Positions 1 to 18,245 of a stretch of 32,500 nucleotides of DNA are shown in pieces. Where the stretch lies: assembly GCA_012517325.1 (NCBI GenBank), contig JAAYVF010000023.1:1-32500 (forward strand), in the 5' to 3' direction. A program made the position numbers and the translations under genes. The notes beneath the pieces were generated by a model, which was not told the DNA's origin, did no database searches, and saw only the letters and a list, made by a program, of their open reading frames with translations. Each line of letters begins with the position of its first letter. Within the stretch, counting starts at the first letter, position 1. The DNA is from Myxococcales bacterium (GTDB lineage Bacteria > Lernaellota > Lernaellaia > Lernaellales > Lernaellaceae).

Positions 1-1063
1 CGAGCGCCAGCACGGTTTTCTTTCCCTTTTCCAACCGGACCGCACCGCTGAGCCAACTCGCTTTTTGCTGCGCGGTGACGCGGTATTCGCCCGGTTCCAG
101 GCCGATGCTCATCGGCTGGCCCGGCCGTTTGTTCACCTCGGCGACCAGGCGGCCCTGGGAATCGCGGATGAAGAAGCGCCCGTTCATTTCGGCGGGCAGT
201 TCCAGCAGGGCGGAGATTTCGTTCAGATCGGTCAGCACCAGGTCGCCGGCGCCGGCCAATTGAAAATCGTAACTCGGGTGCTGCGGACCGGCGCGGGTCG
301 ATTCGGTGCGGGCCAGCGTTTCGTGGAAGGCGTAGTGGTAGGCCTCGTTGATGCTCACCCGCCCGTCGCGGTTGTCGTCGGCCGCGCCGCGCAGGCCGGA
401 AATCAGGTAGTGCGTGAAGAAGGAACCGCCGACGCGATCCGACTCCTGCGCCGCTTCGTCGGCCGACGAGGAAGTCAGAAAAGCGTGGCCGCGCACGGCG
501 GTCGACGAGTCGACCAGAAACGCCGAACGCCGCGTACCGCCCTTTTCGCGGGTCAGCGCGCCGGAAGCGCAGGAATCGAGAATGGCGACGCGCACGTCGG
601 CCGAAAGCCCGTCGATCGCCTGGCGCATCTCGCTGTAGGAGAAGTGCTCGCCGTTGAGCAACAGTCCGCGCTCGTCGGAGTGGCCGGAATAATAGACGAT
701 CACTTCGATCCGCTGGCCGGACCGTTTGGCCTCGCGCAGGATGCTTTGCAATTGGCGGAACCCGGTCTCCAGGCCGTTGCGGCTCGGATCGGTCAGGACG
801 TAGGCGTCGGCCGGCGCGACGCCGCCCAGTTCCTGCATGAGTTTCGATACCGCGCCGGCGTCGCTCGTCGCGAACTTGAGCCGGATGCGATTCTTGCCGC
901 CGTTATTGGCGCCCACGACGAAAATAAAGCGCCGGAAGGCCTGATCGCCGGCCGCCGGCTCGGCGGCGACGGCGGCGCGAACCGCCGGCCACGCCGCGAA
1001 AAAGATCAGCAACGCCAGACCGGCCGCGCATATTTTTTGCCGCCAGGCAATGGAACAATTCAT
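1..1063 (-). CDS. Caspase-like (peptidase C14 family) protease, partial at left edge
   Basis: Reading left from ATG 1063 gives an open frame of 354 codons that is still open at base 1, so the C-terminus is missing. The N-terminus is a clear signal peptide or anchor (basic start, then AGLALLIFFAAWPAVRA). The caspase fold follows: FIFVVGANNGG opens the first strand, the catalytic His is H128 in YYSGHSDERG, and the catalytic Cys is C165 in AILDSCASGA. Beyond residue about 260 the sequence reads as a beta-rich domain (FFIRDSQGRLVAEVNKRPG). Both catalytic residues are present, so I expect an active cysteine protease acting outside the cytoplasm, probably in the periplasm. Its ATG lies one base after the stop of the DUF4384-like gene, so the two are translationally coupled. 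The family is clear; substrate and role (signalling, death-like or regulatory proteolysis) are unknown. Confidence 0.85.
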   Translation of the reverse strand, partial: MNCSIAWRQKICAAGLALLIFFAAWPAVRAAVAAEPAAGDQAFRRFIFVVGANNGGKNRIRLKFATSDAGAVSKLMQELGGVAPADAYVLTDPSRNGLETGFRQLQSILREAKRSGQRIEVIVYYSGHSDERGLLLNGEHFSYSEMRQAIDGLSADVRVAILDSCASGALTREKGGTRRSAFLVDSSTAVRGHAFLTSSSADEAAQESDRVGGSFFTHYLISGLRGAADDNRDGRVSINEAYHYAFHETLARTESTRAGPQHPSYDFQLAGAGDLVLTDLNEISALLELPAEMNGRFFIRDSQGRLVAEVNKRPGQPMSIGLEPGEYRVTAQQKASWLSGAVRLEKGKKTVLAL

Positions 1064-1064
1064 T

Positions 1065-1859
1065 TCAAGGGTTCCTCGTCGGCTTGCGAAGGGTCAGCCC
1101 GGTCACCGTCAGACCCGGGGCCAGGGAAAGTCCCGCTTTCGGATCGCGGGAGGCCGCACGCAGCACGTCCAGCAGCCGCGGCACGTCGATTTCCGTTTTG
1201 GCGGTGATGAAAAAGAAGCGCTCGAACAGCGGCGCCCGGTCCAATTCGTAGGCGAACGGCAGGGAATGAACGCCGCCGTCATCCAACCGGGTCGAGGCGG
1301 ACGGATCGGCCGGGAAATGAAGCGTCACGTTGCCGCCGCCGTCCACCGAGACGATCGCGCCGTAAGCGGCGTCGCCGGCCAGATAGCTGATTTGCAACAG
1401 GTCGCCGGCCCGGACCACGTCGCCGTCGCGCAGCTCGCGCACTTCGTCATCGGTTTTCAAGTGAACGAACAGCCGGCTGTCACCCTTGACCCGTTCCATG
1501 CCGCCGGCGATTTCATTGGAGTCTGGCAGAGCGCCGTGCAAGAAGGGCCAGAGAAGGAAACCGCCGACCACCAGCAGCGCGACGGCGCTCAGCGCGGCCA
1601 TGGCCGGCGAGAGGAATCGCGCCATGGCGCGACGGGGCGACCGCGACGCGGCGGCCTGACGCCGAATGGCGGCGGCGAGCAACCGCGGCGGGTACTGTTC
1701 GAGGATTTCCCGGTCGGACGCCGGCAGGGCGGCCAGCCGCGCCTGGGCGTCGGCATCGGCGGCGATCCGGGCGCGGATCTCCTCGGCCTGGCGCGTCGGC
1801 AACTCGGACAAGGCGGCCTGTTCGAGCAGCAGATCGGGGATTTTGCGCTTTTCGCTCAT
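1065..1859 (-). CDS. Single-pass membrane protein with DUF4384-like C-terminal domain, probable anti-sigma factor
   Basis: 264 residues. Residues 1-80 are a charged, Ala/Arg-rich cytoplasmic region without the Cys/His pattern of zinc-finger anti-sigma factors. Residues about 84-108 form one membrane segment (MAALSAVALLVVGGFLLWPF). Residues about 130-230 resemble the DUF4384 beta domain: a RDGDVVRAGDLLQISY strand, then AYGAIVSVDGGGNVTLHFP. The tail SLAPGLTVTGLTLRK is beta-rich. The ATG at 1859 shares a base with the TGA of the upstream sigma-factor gene (TGATG), and the caspase-like gene starts one base after this stop. Topology and position fit a membrane anti-sigma factor that senses something outside the cytoplasm and holds the ECF sigma factor. 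That role is inferred, and the DUF4384 resemblance is by eye. Confidence 0.7.
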   Translation of the reverse strand: MSEKRKIPDLLLEQAALSELPTRQAEEIRARIAADADAQARLAALPASDREILEQYPPRLLAAAIRRQAAASRSPRRAMARFLSPAMAALSAVALLVVGGFLLWPFLHGALPDSNEIAGGMERVKGDSRLFVHLKTDDEVRELRDGDVVRAGDLLQISYLAGDAAYGAIVSVDGGGNVTLHFPADPSASTRLDDGGVHSLPFAYELDRAPLFERFFFITAKTEIDVPRLLDVLRAASRDPKAGLSLAPGLTVTGLTLRKPTRNP

Positions 1860-2344
1860 CACGCAACCCCCTCGAGTTCCACCAGCCGGCCGCGCAGCGT
1901 CCGCAGCCGTTTGCGCACGCCGGACACGGAGAGCCCGACCTGGGCCGCCACTTCTTCCAGGGTCAGTCCGTCCAGCAGATGCAGCACGGCGATGGTTTGC
2001 GTGGTGGCTTTTTCGCGGCCGAACAATTTGCCCAGGACGTTGCGGGCCTGGAGGGAGGATTCGGCCTCGGCCGTTTGGGCGATGCGCCACAGCAATTGGT
2101 CGTCGATCGTTTCTTCCGGCCGGCGGCCGGCCGCGCGGATCTTGTTCAGGCAGACGCGGGTGGCGGTGGTATACAGCAGGCTGGAGGGCGCCAGGTCGTT
2201 CAAGTCGTCCCGGTGACGCAACAGGCGGACGAAGGTGTCCTGCATCGCGTCCCGCGCCAGTTCCTCGTCGCGCAGCAATTTTCGACATCGGCGCAGCACC
2301 ATGGGGCCGTATCTCCGGTAAAGTTCTTCGATGTCGATTCCCAC
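1859..2344 (-). CDS. ECF-type sigma-70 family RNA polymerase sigma factor
   Basis: Sigma region 2 is visible in DIEELYRRYGPMVLRRCRKLLRD followed by AMQDTFVRLLR. Region 4 is visible near the C-terminus as LLDGLTLEEVAAQVGLSVSGVRKRLRTLRGRL, a helix-turn-helix that would bind the -35 element. No region 1 or 3 is present, as is typical of the ECF group. The frame is open back to a GTG at 2377, but the GTG at 2344 is preferred because GGACGGAG precedes it and it yields the usual short N-terminus (about 161 residues). Its stop overlaps the start of the membrane DUF4384-like gene, the classic layout of an ECF factor with its cognate anti-sigma factor. It probably directs its own operon, including the caspase-like protease, in response to an envelope signal. 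I could not identify its promoter motif. Confidence 0.87.
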   Translation of the reverse strand: MGIDIEELYRRYGPMVLRRCRKLLRDEELARDAMQDTFVRLLRHRDDLNDLAPSSLLYTTATRVCLNKIRAAGRRPEETIDDQLLWRIAQTAEAESSLQARNVLGKLFGREKATTQTIAVLHLLDGLTLEEVAAQVGLSVSGVRKRLRTLRGRLVELEGVA

Positions 2345-2437
2345 GTACCTGACTCCGTCCTTCGCTTGATCTAACACCGTAACCGATTGTTTCCGTCACC
2401 GCCGCGCGAAAAGAATCGGCGGACCGATTGTAAATGG

Positions 2438-2471
2438 AAAAACGGCCCGCCGGAATAGACCGGGCGGGCCG
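2438..2471 (-). terminator. Rho-independent terminator after the lipoprotein gene
   Basis: On the minus strand a GC-rich inverted repeat (arms CGGCCCGCC at 2443-2451 and GGCGGGCCG at 2463-2471) is followed by a run of five T. It lies 25 bases past the stop of the lipoprotein gene and before the sigma-factor gene, so it separates those transcripts. Confidence 0.8.
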
Positions 2472-2495
2472 CTTGGCGGACTGGCTTTACGGTGT

Positions 2496-3317
2496 TTATT
2501 GCGTGCGGATTTGCATGGATCGCCAGTCGGTGCCGGTCAGGCGGACCCGGCCGCCGGTGTCGGTTTCGAAAAACAGTTCCTGCCGCAGCACGCAATAGAG
2601 CGGCAACGATTCGTGGCCATTGGTCTTGAGGGTTTGGGAGTCGGAGTAATCGGGCTCGAAATCCTTGTCGATCGAAAACCAGTAGAACGTCAGATCGTCC
2701 TCGTCCGGCTGATCGGTGAAGGCGCGGAGTTCGACTTTTCCGTCGGTGACCGTGTATTCGCCCTGGGTGTTCGGCGAAATTTCCTTGCCGCCCTGGGAAA
2801 CGACGATCTCGGTCAGCACGGGATTTGTGAGCCGCCGGTCGGGTTCGCGCTCGGAAACGACGAACATTTTGTAGGCCAGGCGGGCTTCCTGATTCATGTC
2901 GCCGTTTTTGAAAATCGCGGCGACGACCGTCAGCAGCAGGCCGTTTTCCTGGAAGGGGCCGAACCGCTCCTCCAGTTGGTCGCGGTCGAGCACCGTCCAG
3001 ACGAACGGCTGCCCGGGTGAAGTGACGGCGGCGGTCGCGGGATCGAAAGCGTTGCTGTCCTCCGTTTGAGTCGCGTTGCCGCCGACGATCGTCCAGGCCA
3101 TCGGCCCATCGTAGGCCAGGCCGTCCTCGCGCACGGCCAGGGCGGTGAAGGTGATTTGCTCGCCGGGCGCCGCCTCCAGCGGATCGGCCTGAATGGCCAG
3201 GAAGCGTTGCGAATCGAGGTAGGCGGCGGACTCGAAATCGGCCATGTCGCAGCCAAGCGACGGGAAAAGCATTCCGGCCAGGAAACACCAAACCGCGGGC
3301 AGGAGGAATTTTTTCAT
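2496..3317 (-). CDS. Lipoprotein with Ig-like/beta-sandwich regions, function unknown
   Basis: 273 residues from the ATG at 3317, chosen because AGGGAG sits seven bases upstream and the product begins with a textbook lipoprotein signal (MKKFLLPAVWCFLAGMLFPSLGC; lipobox PSLGC). A longer in-frame start at 3368 would be translated from a repeat hairpin and is rejected. The mature part looks beta-rich. Residues about 40-115 start with ADPLEAAPGEQITFTALAV, typical of bacterial Ig-like repeats, and a second similar stretch follows from LTEIVVSQGGKEI. There are no catalytic motifs. It should be anchored to a membrane, probably the outer one. It follows the TonB-receptor gene across a cluster of hairpins, so co-transcription is uncertain. 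It may be a surface accessory to that receptor, but nothing proves this. Confidence 0.75.
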   Translation of the reverse strand: MKKFLLPAVWCFLAGMLFPSLGCDMADFESAAYLDSQRFLAIQADPLEAAPGEQITFTALAVREDGLAYDGPMAWTIVGGNATQTEDSNAFDPATAAVTSPGQPFVWTVLDRDQLEERFGPFQENGLLLTVVAAIFKNGDMNQEARLAYKMFVVSEREPDRRLTNPVLTEIVVSQGGKEISPNTQGEYTVTDGKVELRAFTDQPDEDDLTFYWFSIDKDFEPDYSDSQTLKTNGHESLPLYCVLRQELFFETDTGGRVRLTGTDWRSMQIRTQ

Positions 3318-3337
3318 TTCACGTCTCCCTCGCAGGC

Positions 3338-3370
3338 GGTTGAAAAAGGCCGTCCTGGCCTTTTTCAACC
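3338..3370. repeat. Perfect 14-bp-stem hairpin (first of four)
   Basis: Arms GGTTGAAAAAGGCC (3338-3351) and GGCCTTTTTCAACC (3357-3370) surround the loop GTCCT. The A/T-rich outer stem flanking a GGCC core lets it act as a terminator in either direction. The same hairpin recurs at 18213-18245. Confidence 0.85.
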
Positions 3371-3415
3371 GCGCTCAACAAAAAGTGTGGTTTTTCTTTC
3401 GCTTCATTTTCGGCA
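3339..3415 (+). repeat. 77-bp dispersed repeat, copy A
   Basis: This stretch matches the reverse complement of 18169-18245 over 77 bases with two mismatches by eye. It comprises the GTTGAAAAAGGCC hairpin, a CGCGCTCAACAAAAAG spacer and a TTTCGCTTCATTTTCGGCA tail. Both copies lie between genes, so it is probably a family of intergenic hairpin elements in this genome. Confidence 0.85.
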
Positions 3416-3483
3416 ACTTCGGAAGTTGCCGAAAATGGCGATCCATCCCTGGATCGCACGCCGGGTGTTTTTCAACACCCGGC
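3405..3483. repeat. Three further contiguous hairpins; the last probably terminates the TonB-receptor transcript
   Basis: Hairpin 2 has 16-bp perfect arms at 3405-3420 and 3422-3437 (CATTTTCGGCAACTTC and its complement). Hairpin 3 has 8-bp arms at 3438-3445 and 3450-3457 (GCGATCCA/TGGATCGC). Hairpin 4 has 10-bp arms at 3460-3469 and 3474-3483 (GCCGGGTGTT/AACACCCGGC, loop TTTC) and touches the stop codon of the TonB-receptor gene. They are almost contiguous, leaving little unpaired sequence. Confidence 0.8.
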
Positions 3484-5774
3484 TAGAACCGGCCTTGAAG
3501 GCCGACGGTCGGCATGAACGCCGGGAAGGAAATCGCTTTTTTCTCGGTGTAGTCGTAGTTGTACTCGTAGCCGACCGGGTATTTGTTCCAATAGACGTTT
3601 TGCACGTCGAGATAGGTGGTGAGTTGCCAGGAATTGAACGTCCAGATCTTGTCGATGCGGATATCCAGCTTGTGGTAAGGCTTTTCCCGCTCGCCGTTGA
3701 TTTGCTCGTCGTAGACCGGGATATACGAATCGGTGTCCGCGTTGTAGAGCGCGCTCCGAATATCGGTATACGGCAGGCCGCTGGTGAACTGGAACTTCGC
3801 GCCCAGCCGCCAGTCTTTTTGCGCGCCCAGAATGTAACTGGCCAGCACGACGAAATTGTGGGTTTGATCCTGATCGAAATAGCGCCAATCGGCGTCGGCG
3901 TTGTCCTTGCGTCGCGAAACCGTATAGGTATACGACACCCAGCCCATGAAGCGATCCGTCAGCCGCTTGCGCGCCAGCAATTCGACCCCGTGGATCTTGC
4001 CCTGGCCGTCGTTGGTGTAAACGGGCTCGTCGTCGCGGCCCGACACGACCATGCCGTACAGGCGCTTGTAATAGCCCTGCAGGTCGACCGTCCAGCCTTC
4101 GCCGAAATCGTATTCGGCGCCGCCCGCGTAAAGCTCGGCGGTTTCCGTATCGAGATTCTCGTTGCCGTAACCCTTCAGGTACTCGTCCAGCGACGGCCAC
4201 TGGTGATAAAGCCCGGTCGCCGCTTTCAGGGTCAGGCCTCTCCAGGGGAAGACCTTGGCCGAGAGGCGCGGATCGTAGGAGGTTTTACCGAGATAAGCTT
4301 GATAATTGACGCGGGCGCCGGGAACGATATTCAACCAAGAAGCGGGATTCATCACGTCTTCCACGTAGAACGACGGCTGAAAAACGTCGCCGGTCACGTC
4401 GATGTGATAAGTCTCCTCCGAGGCGTCATCGAAACCCGGTTCCCCCTCCCGGGGCGCGTGGGGTACGTTCGCTTCGATGCTGCCGAAACCGTAATCGCCG
4501 TCGATGCCGAGGCGTAATTCGTTCCATTTGGCCAAGCGGACGGAAAAATCATCGCGGAATTGAATATCGCTGGTTTTTCCTTTCAGCGTGAAATTGTCGC
4601 CGAATTCGTATTCCTCGTCCGAGTAGAGGTAGTTTACGTGCAAGCTGTTGCTCACCCGCTCGTTAGGCGTCCAGGTCCAGGCCAAGCCCGGCTGGTGCCA
4701 GGAGACTCGGATGTTGAAGGTGTCGGAACTGAACGGATCCTTGCGCTCGTCACTTTCGTCGATGATCGACATCCCGTCATCCGAACCGAAGGCGAATAGT
4801 TGCAGCAGGTGGTCGTTGCCCAGATGATAATTGACGATCGCCTGGTAATCGTAAAACCGCGGCGCCAAGGTGAATTGCGCCTGATCCTTGGGAATCACCA
4901 CGGGAAGGATGAAATCGATGAAGCTGCGCCGGACGCCGACCGCGCCGGAGGCGTTCTTGCCCAGCGGCCCCTCGAAAATCATGAAGGTGGCGTACGTGTT
5001 CAGATCGACCAGCCCGCCCAGGCGATCGGTCCGCGGTTCCCGGTTGGTCAGTTCCACGATGCCGCCCAGGGCGTTGCCGTATTTCACGCTGTAAGCGCCG
5101 GGATAGTAAACGATATCCTGCAGCAGTTCGGCGTTGACGATGGAGTTCATGCCGCCGAAGTGGAACAGTTGCGGAATTTCCAGCCCGTTGAGTTTGTAAC
5201 CGCTGTCCTCGGGGCCGGTACCGCGAATCACGAGGCCGTCGTTGCCGAAACCCATGACACTGGTAGCCGCGACGCCCGGCAGGCTTTCGAGCACGCGAAT
5301 GGGATCGTTGTTGGCGCCCGGGACGCCGGTCAGTTCTTCTTTTTTCAATTCCTGCCGCGAAACGACCTCGGGTTCGCGCTTTCCGATGACGGTCACCTCA
5401 TCCGCCTCGTAACCCGGCAGCGATTGCAGGTAACAGTTCTTGCGGGTCGGTTTACCCGCGCGCACGGTCACGGTCGCCTCGAACGGTTCGCTCAGGTCGT
5501 CGGTGACGGTCAGCACGTAATCACCGGGCGACAGGTTTTCGAAGGTGAACGCTCCTTGGTCATCGGTCACGGTTCCCCACGTGCGGTTCTCGTCGTTCCA
5601 ATCTTTTAATTGAACGGCGAGTTGCGGTTTGGGCAGGCGGGTTCCCTTGACCATGATGATCCCGGTCAGGGATCCCAGGGCCGGCTCCTCAGCGGCTGCC
5701 GCGCCGGCGAGGAACGGAATGAGCAAGCCGAGCAGCGCCAGGCCGAGGCCGATTCGCACGGTGTTGTTGGTCAT
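3483..5774 (-). CDS. TonB-dependent outer-membrane receptor with N-terminal carboxypeptidase-regulatory-like domain
   Basis: 763 residues from the ATG at 5774, chosen for GGAG at a normal distance and a proper signal peptide (MTNNTVRIGLGLALLGLLIPFLAGAAAA). Residues about 32-110 are a carboxypeptidase-regulatory-like beta-sandwich (GSLTGIIMVKGTRLPKPQLAV, then DDQGAFTFENLSPGDYVLTV). A TonB-box-like DEVTVIGKR follows, then the plug (LESLPGVAATSVMGFGNDGLVIRG, and YKLNGLEIPQLFHFGGMNS). The rest alternates as beta strands of a 22-strand barrel and ends in Phe (PTVGLQGRF), the usual signal for barrel insertion. It should import a ligand with energy from TonB/ExbBD, none of which is in this window. 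The ligand is unknown; no heme or cobalamin motif or riboswitch was seen. A downstream lipoprotein gene may be functionally linked. Confidence 0.9.
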   Translation of the reverse strand: MTNNTVRIGLGLALLGLLIPFLAGAAAAEEPALGSLTGIIMVKGTRLPKPQLAVQLKDWNDENRTWGTVTDDQGAFTFENLSPGDYVLTVTDDLSEPFEATVTVRAGKPTRKNCYLQSLPGYEADEVTVIGKREPEVVSRQELKKEELTGVPGANNDPIRVLESLPGVAATSVMGFGNDGLVIRGTGPEDSGYKLNGLEIPQLFHFGGMNSIVNAELLQDIVYYPGAYSVKYGNALGGIVELTNREPRTDRLGGLVDLNTYATFMIFEGPLGKNASGAVGVRRSFIDFILPVVIPKDQAQFTLAPRFYDYQAIVNYHLGNDHLLQLFAFGSDDGMSIIDESDERKDPFSSDTFNIRVSWHQPGLAWTWTPNERVSNSLHVNYLYSDEEYEFGDNFTLKGKTSDIQFRDDFSVRLAKWNELRLGIDGDYGFGSIEANVPHAPREGEPGFDDASEETYHIDVTGDVFQPSFYVEDVMNPASWLNIVPGARVNYQAYLGKTSYDPRLSAKVFPWRGLTLKAATGLYHQWPSLDEYLKGYGNENLDTETAELYAGGAEYDFGEGWTVDLQGYYKRLYGMVVSGRDDEPVYTNDGQGKIHGVELLARKRLTDRFMGWVSYTYTVSRRKDNADADWRYFDQDQTHNFVVLASYILGAQKDWRLGAKFQFTSGLPYTDIRSALYNADTDSYIPVYDEQINGEREKPYHKLDIRIDKIWTFNSWQLTTYLDVQNVYWNKYPVGYEYNYDYTEKKAISFPAFMPTVGLQGRF

Positions 5775-5903
5775 CGTTGCACTCCGAATATCGCGGCGGT
5801 TGCCGTTGCGCCGCGCCATGGATCCCGACTATCGCCGCAATGAACCATTCCATTCAACACCCGAGGTGTATCCTTTTGTCACCCCAGCCGACTGAATGGT
5901 TAA

Positions 5904-18168: not shown

Positions 18169-18245
18169 TGCCGAAAATGAAGCGAAATAAAAACCACGCT
18201 TTTTGTTGAGCGCGGTTGAAAAAGGCCAGGACGGCCTTTTTCAAC
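18169..18245 (-). repeat. 77-bp dispersed repeat, copy B (inverted relative to copy A)
   Basis: Reverse complement of 3339-3415 with two mismatches by eye. It sits between the end of the beta-barrel gene (stop at 18252) and the start of the thioesterase gene. Its GTTGAAAAAGGCC/GGCCTTTTTCAAC hairpin lies seven bases past the beta-barrel stop and probably terminates the polysaccharide-export operon. Confidence 0.85.

Follow-up and report, generated by a model that had tools for sequence, protein, structure and literature searches.

The window, a 32,500-nt stretch of DNA covering bases 1-32500 of its contig, opens with three adjacent genes encoding a sigma factor, a membrane protein and a caspase. 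This locus raises the question of whether the three form a signalling switch and, if so, what an exported caspase would do in it. The original prediction described three coupled open reading frames (ORFs), and all three are present, on the minus strand and tightly joined (Table 1). The sigma stop codon and the start codon of the middle gene share a one-base overlap (TGATG), as predicted, but at 1861-1857 rather than 1859-1861; the middle stop codon and the caspase start codon are separated by a one-base gap (TGA-A-ATG, 1067-1061), exactly where it had been placed. The caspase gene is incomplete. As the contig begins at base 1, the caspase C-terminus and the downstream neighbors are absent from the assembly.

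In the sigma protein, Sigma70_r2 (Pfam) scores 54 bits against a cut-off of 24 and TIGR02937 (NCBIfam) 69 bits against 42.9, and region 4 models score just under their cut-offs. A short protein with regions 2 and 4 corresponds to an ECF sigma factor. Of its two possible starts, the GTG codon is the likelier, because the start of the longer ORF falls within the −10 element of the predicted promoter.

Table 1. Features of the three-gene locus and the adjoining operon (positions in the window)
Feature	Position	Strand	Basis and remarks
ECF sigma factor (regions 2 and 4)	1859..2344	−	GTG start 2344; Sigma70_r2 1.4e-14, TIGR02937 3.5e-19
Predicted membrane anti-sigma factor (middle protein)	1065..1859	−	AlphaFold2 mean pLDDT 86; hhalign E=9.5e-43; NF052375 matches of relatives
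Parts of the middle protein (residues, as modeled)	zinc-less anti-sigma domain ~1-72; TM helix 87-102; disordered linker 108-122; periplasmic DUF4384-like beta domain 129-258		
Exported caspase (Peptidase_C14)	2..1063	−	PF00656 1.3e-9; His128/Cys165 intact; then start of beta domain
Predicted ECF promoter of the trio, GGTGAC-N16-GGTGTT	2373..2400	−	Exact match; overlaps long-ORF start 2377
Second predicted promoter copy, GGTGAC-N16-GGTGTT	5856..5883	−	Exact match; 36 bases before first possible TonB-receptor start
TonB-dependent receptor, N-terminal CarboxypepD_reg + Plug; predicted sigma target	3483..5819	−	Pfam; promoter
Putative lipoprotein, probable receptor companion	2496..3317	−	Lipobox-like N-terminus by inspection; weak alignment

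The window's caspase matches PF00656 (Pfam) at 38.6 bits, with a cut-off of 21.4. Both catalytic residues (H128 and C165) are seen directly in the protein, as predicted, and none of the 49 aligned relatives departs from the equivalent His and Cys; a caspase fold with this His-Cys dyad places the protein in peptidase family C14. A sequence search of the PDB with the window's caspase gave no match, and a profile of its relatives finds metacaspases.

Complete relatives are mostly 650-850 residues long. One of them, from locus L028, is 57% identical to the window's caspase over the common part, and its structural model consists of a signal helix, a caspase domain (residues 41-290), a small beta domain, LA_2272-type repeats (NF047436) and eight long C-terminal strands. 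Using Foldseek, the front part of this model matched metacaspases (7qp1, E 9.5e-6) and the back part matched the outer-membrane proteins OmpT, PorB, NspA, OprF and OmpA with probabilities of 0.97-1.0 and weaker E values of 0.003-0.02. As modeled, the complete relatives join a caspase to repeats and, at the C-terminus, an outer-membrane barrel, and from homology we infer the same repeats and barrel at the lost end of the window's protein. The position of the caspase domain between signal peptide and barrel puts it most likely on the periplasmic side. The earlier picture of an exported protease at work outside the cytoplasm survives with respect to export. In relatives, the protease is no free periplasmic enzyme but part of a barrel fusion.

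The middle protein had been described as lacking a zinc-finger anti-sigma domain. The zinc finger is indeed absent: HxxxCxxC, the motif of ZAS proteins, is found neither in the window's middle protein nor in the conserved columns of its subfamily. Homology nevertheless marks the protein as an anti-sigma factor, with zinc-bearing homologues in the same operon type. The strongest evidence is that the motif occurs in more distant homologues, most of which adjoin a caspase. Among 22 homologues picked for HxxxCxxC, the H, C and C are invariant in 22/22, as expected from the selection, and 15/22 match zf-HC2. Profiles of the zinc-less and zinc-bearing proteins align over their full length, suggesting that the window's subfamily lost the zinc ligands and kept the anti-sigma domain. 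The NCBIfam model NF052375 (“anti-sigma factor”) is matched by 35/57 relatives (best 5.6e-10), with a weak match in the window's own protein (0.016). Because zinc-bearing homologues occur in the same operon type and most relatives match NF052375, we identify the middle protein as a putative zinc-less membrane anti-sigma factor, which would bind the sigma factor encoded upstream of it.

The AlphaFold2 model, built with 57 relatives, begins with four confident helices at residues 9-72, followed by the membrane helix, the linker and a confident beta domain. This is the layout of an anti-sigma factor, with a helical cytoplasmic domain, then a transmembrane helix, and a gene adjoining that of the sigma factor. 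The DUF4384 match is below threshold (Pfam; 17 bits, cut-off 27). A structure search of the PDB with the whole model returned mostly generic immunoglobulin-like sandwiches, none below E 0.001, and gave no guidance on the helical domain.

We considered the R-x-K-G motif after the transmembrane helix (K conserved in 100% and G in 99%) as a caspase cleavage site and rejected it, as the motif is also present at loci with no caspase detected in the vicinity (L146, L159 and L161, and as V-K-G in L164 and L165). For this reason, it looks structural and does not help in choosing between a caspase that is part of the switch and one that is its effector. L164 and L165 each combine a sigma gene with a zinc-less anti-sigma/DUF4384 protein, and a conserved, unrelated downstream gene replaces the caspase.

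A scan of genomes yielded 368 caspase relatives, and the locus counts were taken from the best 80 of these 368. According to record titles, the 80 loci belong to Myxococcota, Spirochaetota, Fibrobacterota, Latescibacterota, Fermentibacteria, Aminicenantes, Gemmatimonadota and others. The original prediction proposed a search for the same three-gene order in other genomes. In the best 80 of 368, the middle gene lies directly upstream of the caspase in 72 loci and is itself preceded by the sigma gene in 57, giving the whole trio; when the count is confined to loci with at least 1.7 kb ahead of the caspase, the numbers are 61/67 and 52/67. Several of the exceptions can be accounted for: L073 and L102 have divergent sigma and anti-sigma genes adjoining, L037 has a mis-called ORF start, and others lie at contig ends. 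The commonest junction is a 4-nt overlap (30/57 and 39/72 loci). The arrangement is far above chance expectation, confirming regulator, membrane protein and exported caspase as a recurring operon. Pairwise distance matrices of the three proteins correlate with r=0.70, 0.76 and 0.80 (permutation maximum 0.29), a result that shared descent alone could yield. The window's genome holds a single copy of the module and six class relatives of this genome hold no close copy, which makes the distribution patchy.

Several of the records have features of their own. At L041, a second anti-sigma-like gene (3046-3659) directly follows the caspase gene (761-3079), possibly as tandem cassettes. In L097, L104 and L106, from records of Latescibacterota and Gemmatimonadota, two caspase genes flank a conserved gene of ~560 residues that comes directly after the first. 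L045 (BNCN01000010.1) is titled Comamonas sp. KCTC 72670, has a locus typical of Myxococcus, and is probably mislabelled. The sole Peptidase_C14 match listed in the whole-genome Pfam search is a 636-residue protein at L027:5959-7869 (G000:C11), which has no trio around it in rough gene calls; the same search did not list the window's own caspase.

When upstream regions from 20 myxobacterial genomes were aligned, a bipartite element emerged ahead of the sigma gene, GGTRAC-N16-GGTGTT. It precedes 26 of 55 trios in its strict form and 43 of 55 in a relaxed form, compared to ~0.01 and ~0.08 expected from mononucleotide shuffling, and the spacer is always 16 in the strict matches ahead of trios. 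Judged by sequence, it corresponds to the bipartite autoregulatory promoter of an ECF sigma factor. The whole 5.25-Mb genome contains two exact copies, both in the window, and one copy of the backward-read control. Across 27 genomes of a Myxococcus-type genus (g110), the element occurs 270 times, versus 33 for the control. In Anaeromyxobacter-type genomes, the strict element is largely missing, and several of the 55 trios are without even the relaxed form. We note that these promoter assignments are predictions from sequence; some of the sites are due to chance and some have no obvious target.

The second copy in the window precedes an operon for a TonB-dependent receptor and a putative lipoprotein. 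The receptor has no STN signalling domain by Pfam and is 28% identical to a receptor encoded upstream of a Citreicoccus caspase gene; the lipoprotein aligns weakly to lipoproteins adjoining TonB receptors or caspases in L024, L031 and L091. Away from trios, the element stands before exbB at the head of exbBD-tonB operons in L024, L030 (two tandem sites) and L091. Other genes 3′ of it encode TonB receptors (L031, L256), putative lipoproteins and barrel-only relatives of the caspase C-terminus. These sites suggest that the switch also turns on the adjoining receptor/lipoprotein operon, with outer-membrane receptor genes under sigma control as far as promoter prediction goes. The description of the module as self-contained was too narrow, because the promoter of the sigma gene also stands before this operon.

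The nature of the apparent targets bears on a different reading, namely a sigma-controlled effector operon for programmed death or against phage. Cell death is a frequent theme in the discussion of metacaspases (PMC3501461), but the apparent targets here are TonB and outer-membrane genes. Furthermore, none of the window's three proteins has a PADLOC match, a complete relative gave only a weak generic caspase match (6e-4), and the EACC1-associated caspase model NF047832 reaches 61 bits against a cut-off of 140. We regard a death or anti-phage role as very improbable.

Two further observations concern the receptors and the intergenic DNA. An unusual architecture, in which an N-terminal TonB_C domain is fused to Plug and barrel, is found in receptors near modules or promoters (L030:1607-4252, L024:5232-7940, L031:10728-13313 and L256:207-2990). 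Between the TonB-receptor and lipoprotein genes of the window lie dense perfect palindromes (3336-3372, 3405-3437 and 3460-3483). The first, GGTTGAAAAAGGCC-N5-GGCCTTTTTCAACC, has four exact genomic copies (on C23, the window's contig, and on C29, C58 and C61), and its core recurs at 18224-18241, pointing to a REP-like or terminator-like repeat family.

Some genomes carry the module in split form. In all 17 Myxococcus-group genomes examined, one locus encodes the sigma factor, an anti-sigma factor and a third protein, mostly ~200 residues long, that has the barrel end only and no caspase; a second locus encodes an anti-sigma factor and the full caspase-barrel protein, and has no sigma gene. In 3/3 Archangium-type genomes, the sigma locus is without a third gene. 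In 20/20 genomes with two anti-sigma loci, the promoter element is present at the locus with the sigma gene as well as at the sigma-less anti-sigma/caspase locus, although the shared ancestry of split-locus genomes means that few independent events are represented. Conservation between the two anti-sigma paralogues of one genome is highest in the sigma-binding domain (65%), against 54% in DUF4384 and 24% in the linker, which suggests that both bind the same sigma factor. The caspase travels with the anti-sigma factor and not with the sigma gene. As the third gene of the sigma locus is barrel-only or missing, the caspase is dispensable in cis; it may act in trans or at some other place.

Our preferred explanation, to which we assign a probability of roughly 45%, is a trans-envelope ECF signalling module that resembles cell-surface signalling and whose outer-membrane component carries its own caspase. 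It builds on the gene linkage, the anti-sigma identity, the caspase-barrel architecture of relatives and the promoter with its target genes, all obtained by computation. The sigma factor would transcribe its own operon and the neighboring TonB-receptor/lipoprotein operon from GGTRAC-N16-GGTGTT promoters. The anti-sigma factor would hold the sigma factor through its zinc-less four-helix domain and extend its DUF4384 domain into the periplasm. The third protein would be an outer-membrane barrel whose N-terminal caspase domain most likely faces the same compartment. When the outer membrane senses a change, the caspase would be set free or brought into place to cut the periplasmic part of the anti-sigma factor, and a membrane (site-2) protease would then free the sigma factor; the window's genome has three matches to M50 site-2 proteases. 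Sigma binding, topology, the signal and the anti-sigma proteolysis are the elements of this scheme that we infer.

The split loci also fit a caspase that is the output of the circuit and not its switch. Here, the sigma pair would sense the envelope in some other way and induce the caspase to process envelope or extracellular proteins, with any effect on the anti-sigma factor being secondary. Both types of locus, even the one that has no sigma gene, carry the caspase 3′ of a sigma-type promoter. The sigma pair is retained where the third gene encodes the barrel alone or is missing, and the other apparent targets are likewise outer-membrane proteins and lipoproteins. This possibility explains the data nearly as well as the switch model does. 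However, no other linkage of the caspase is as close or as persistent as that to the anti-sigma factor (72/80), and it is kept where the sigma gene is missing, which would be needless for a mere output; we consider the output reading less likely than the switch.

Retention of a barrel-only third gene alongside the sigma and anti-sigma genes is also compatible with regulation that does not involve proteolysis. In classical cell-surface signalling, the receptor shields the anti-sigma factor from proteolysis (PMC11637429). By analogy, the caspase domain or the barrel might bind DUF4384 and protect or inhibit the anti-sigma factor, with catalysis serving self-processing or nothing at all. The invariance of the catalytic His and Cys in 49/49 aligned relatives makes this unlikely.

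If the caspase-switch model is right, the trio may be a new type of cell-surface signalling, in which a barrel component with a dedicated site-1 protease, the caspase, cuts the periplasmic domain of the anti-sigma factor and switches on TonB-dependent uptake. We put this forward tentatively, together with the physiological, non-death role that it would give to a large branch of bacterial caspases in Myxococcota, Spirochaetota, Fibrobacterota and other phyla. Most bacterial caspases have no established role, and cell death has dominated their discussion. One large caspase group is linked here to an outer-membrane signalling circuit by its gene order, translational coupling, shared promoter and protein architecture, and this circuit appears to control TonB-dependent receptors. 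The trio would be a widespread but unstudied three-gene switch, and its promoter sequence offers a direct, cheap genetic read-out in non-pathogenic myxobacteria, several of which have the module in split form.

Operons of this kind were described in 2012 by Asplund-Samuelsson et al., who assigned four of the five metacaspases of M. xanthus to operons that also hold sigma-70 factors and reported conservation of such operons in Myxococcus, Anaeromyxobacter, Haliangium, Sorangium, Ralstonia and Fibrobacter (PMC3501461). With sigma-70 and metacaspase genes in one operon, the window's locus belongs to this group. In the part of that text that was searched, the term “anti-sigma” has 0 occurrences, and the operon section is without a promoter, barrel fusion or target genes (PMC3501461). 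The EACC2/TRADD-N caspase systems also have caspase and ECF sigma genes in one neighborhood (PMC8195603); the window differs in having no EACC domain at cut-off and in having an anti-sigma factor and, as its relatives suggest, an outer-membrane barrel. ECF54 resembles the trio in pairing a sigma factor with a caspase-clan protease in a conserved context with CHAT/subtilase neighbors, whereas its proposed regulation is by proteolysis without the anti-sigma factor that the trio has (PMC8999054). A literature search, which covered subscription journals thinly and did not extend to the promoter, found no paper on an outer-membrane caspase of such a kind. Beyond the sigma-metacaspase operons known since 2012, what looks new is the identity of the anti-sigma factor, the fusion to a barrel, the promoter and the regulon.

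The fec genes are ordered sigma, anti-sigma, outer-membrane protein, as in the trio. FecI-FecR-FecA further resembles the module in consisting of an ECF sigma factor, a single-pass anti-sigma factor with a periplasmic domain and an outer-membrane barrel, with the sigma factor driving TonB-receptor genes (PMC9249621, PMC11637429). Despite this similar gene order and layout, we do not count the trio as a FecIRA member, because searches of Pfam and NCBIfam up to E 1 gave no match to the FecR family, the window's receptor has no match to the STN domain of a TonB-dependent transducer, and the outer-membrane partner, by the architecture of relatives, carries a protease. In addition, fecIR is transcribed by sigma-70, whereas the trio's sigma gene has its own predicted sigma-type promoter (PMC9249621, PMC11637429). 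The site-1 protease in ECF surface signalling has been described as still unidentified (PMC11637429), and the caspase of the trio is a concrete candidate for such a built-in protease.
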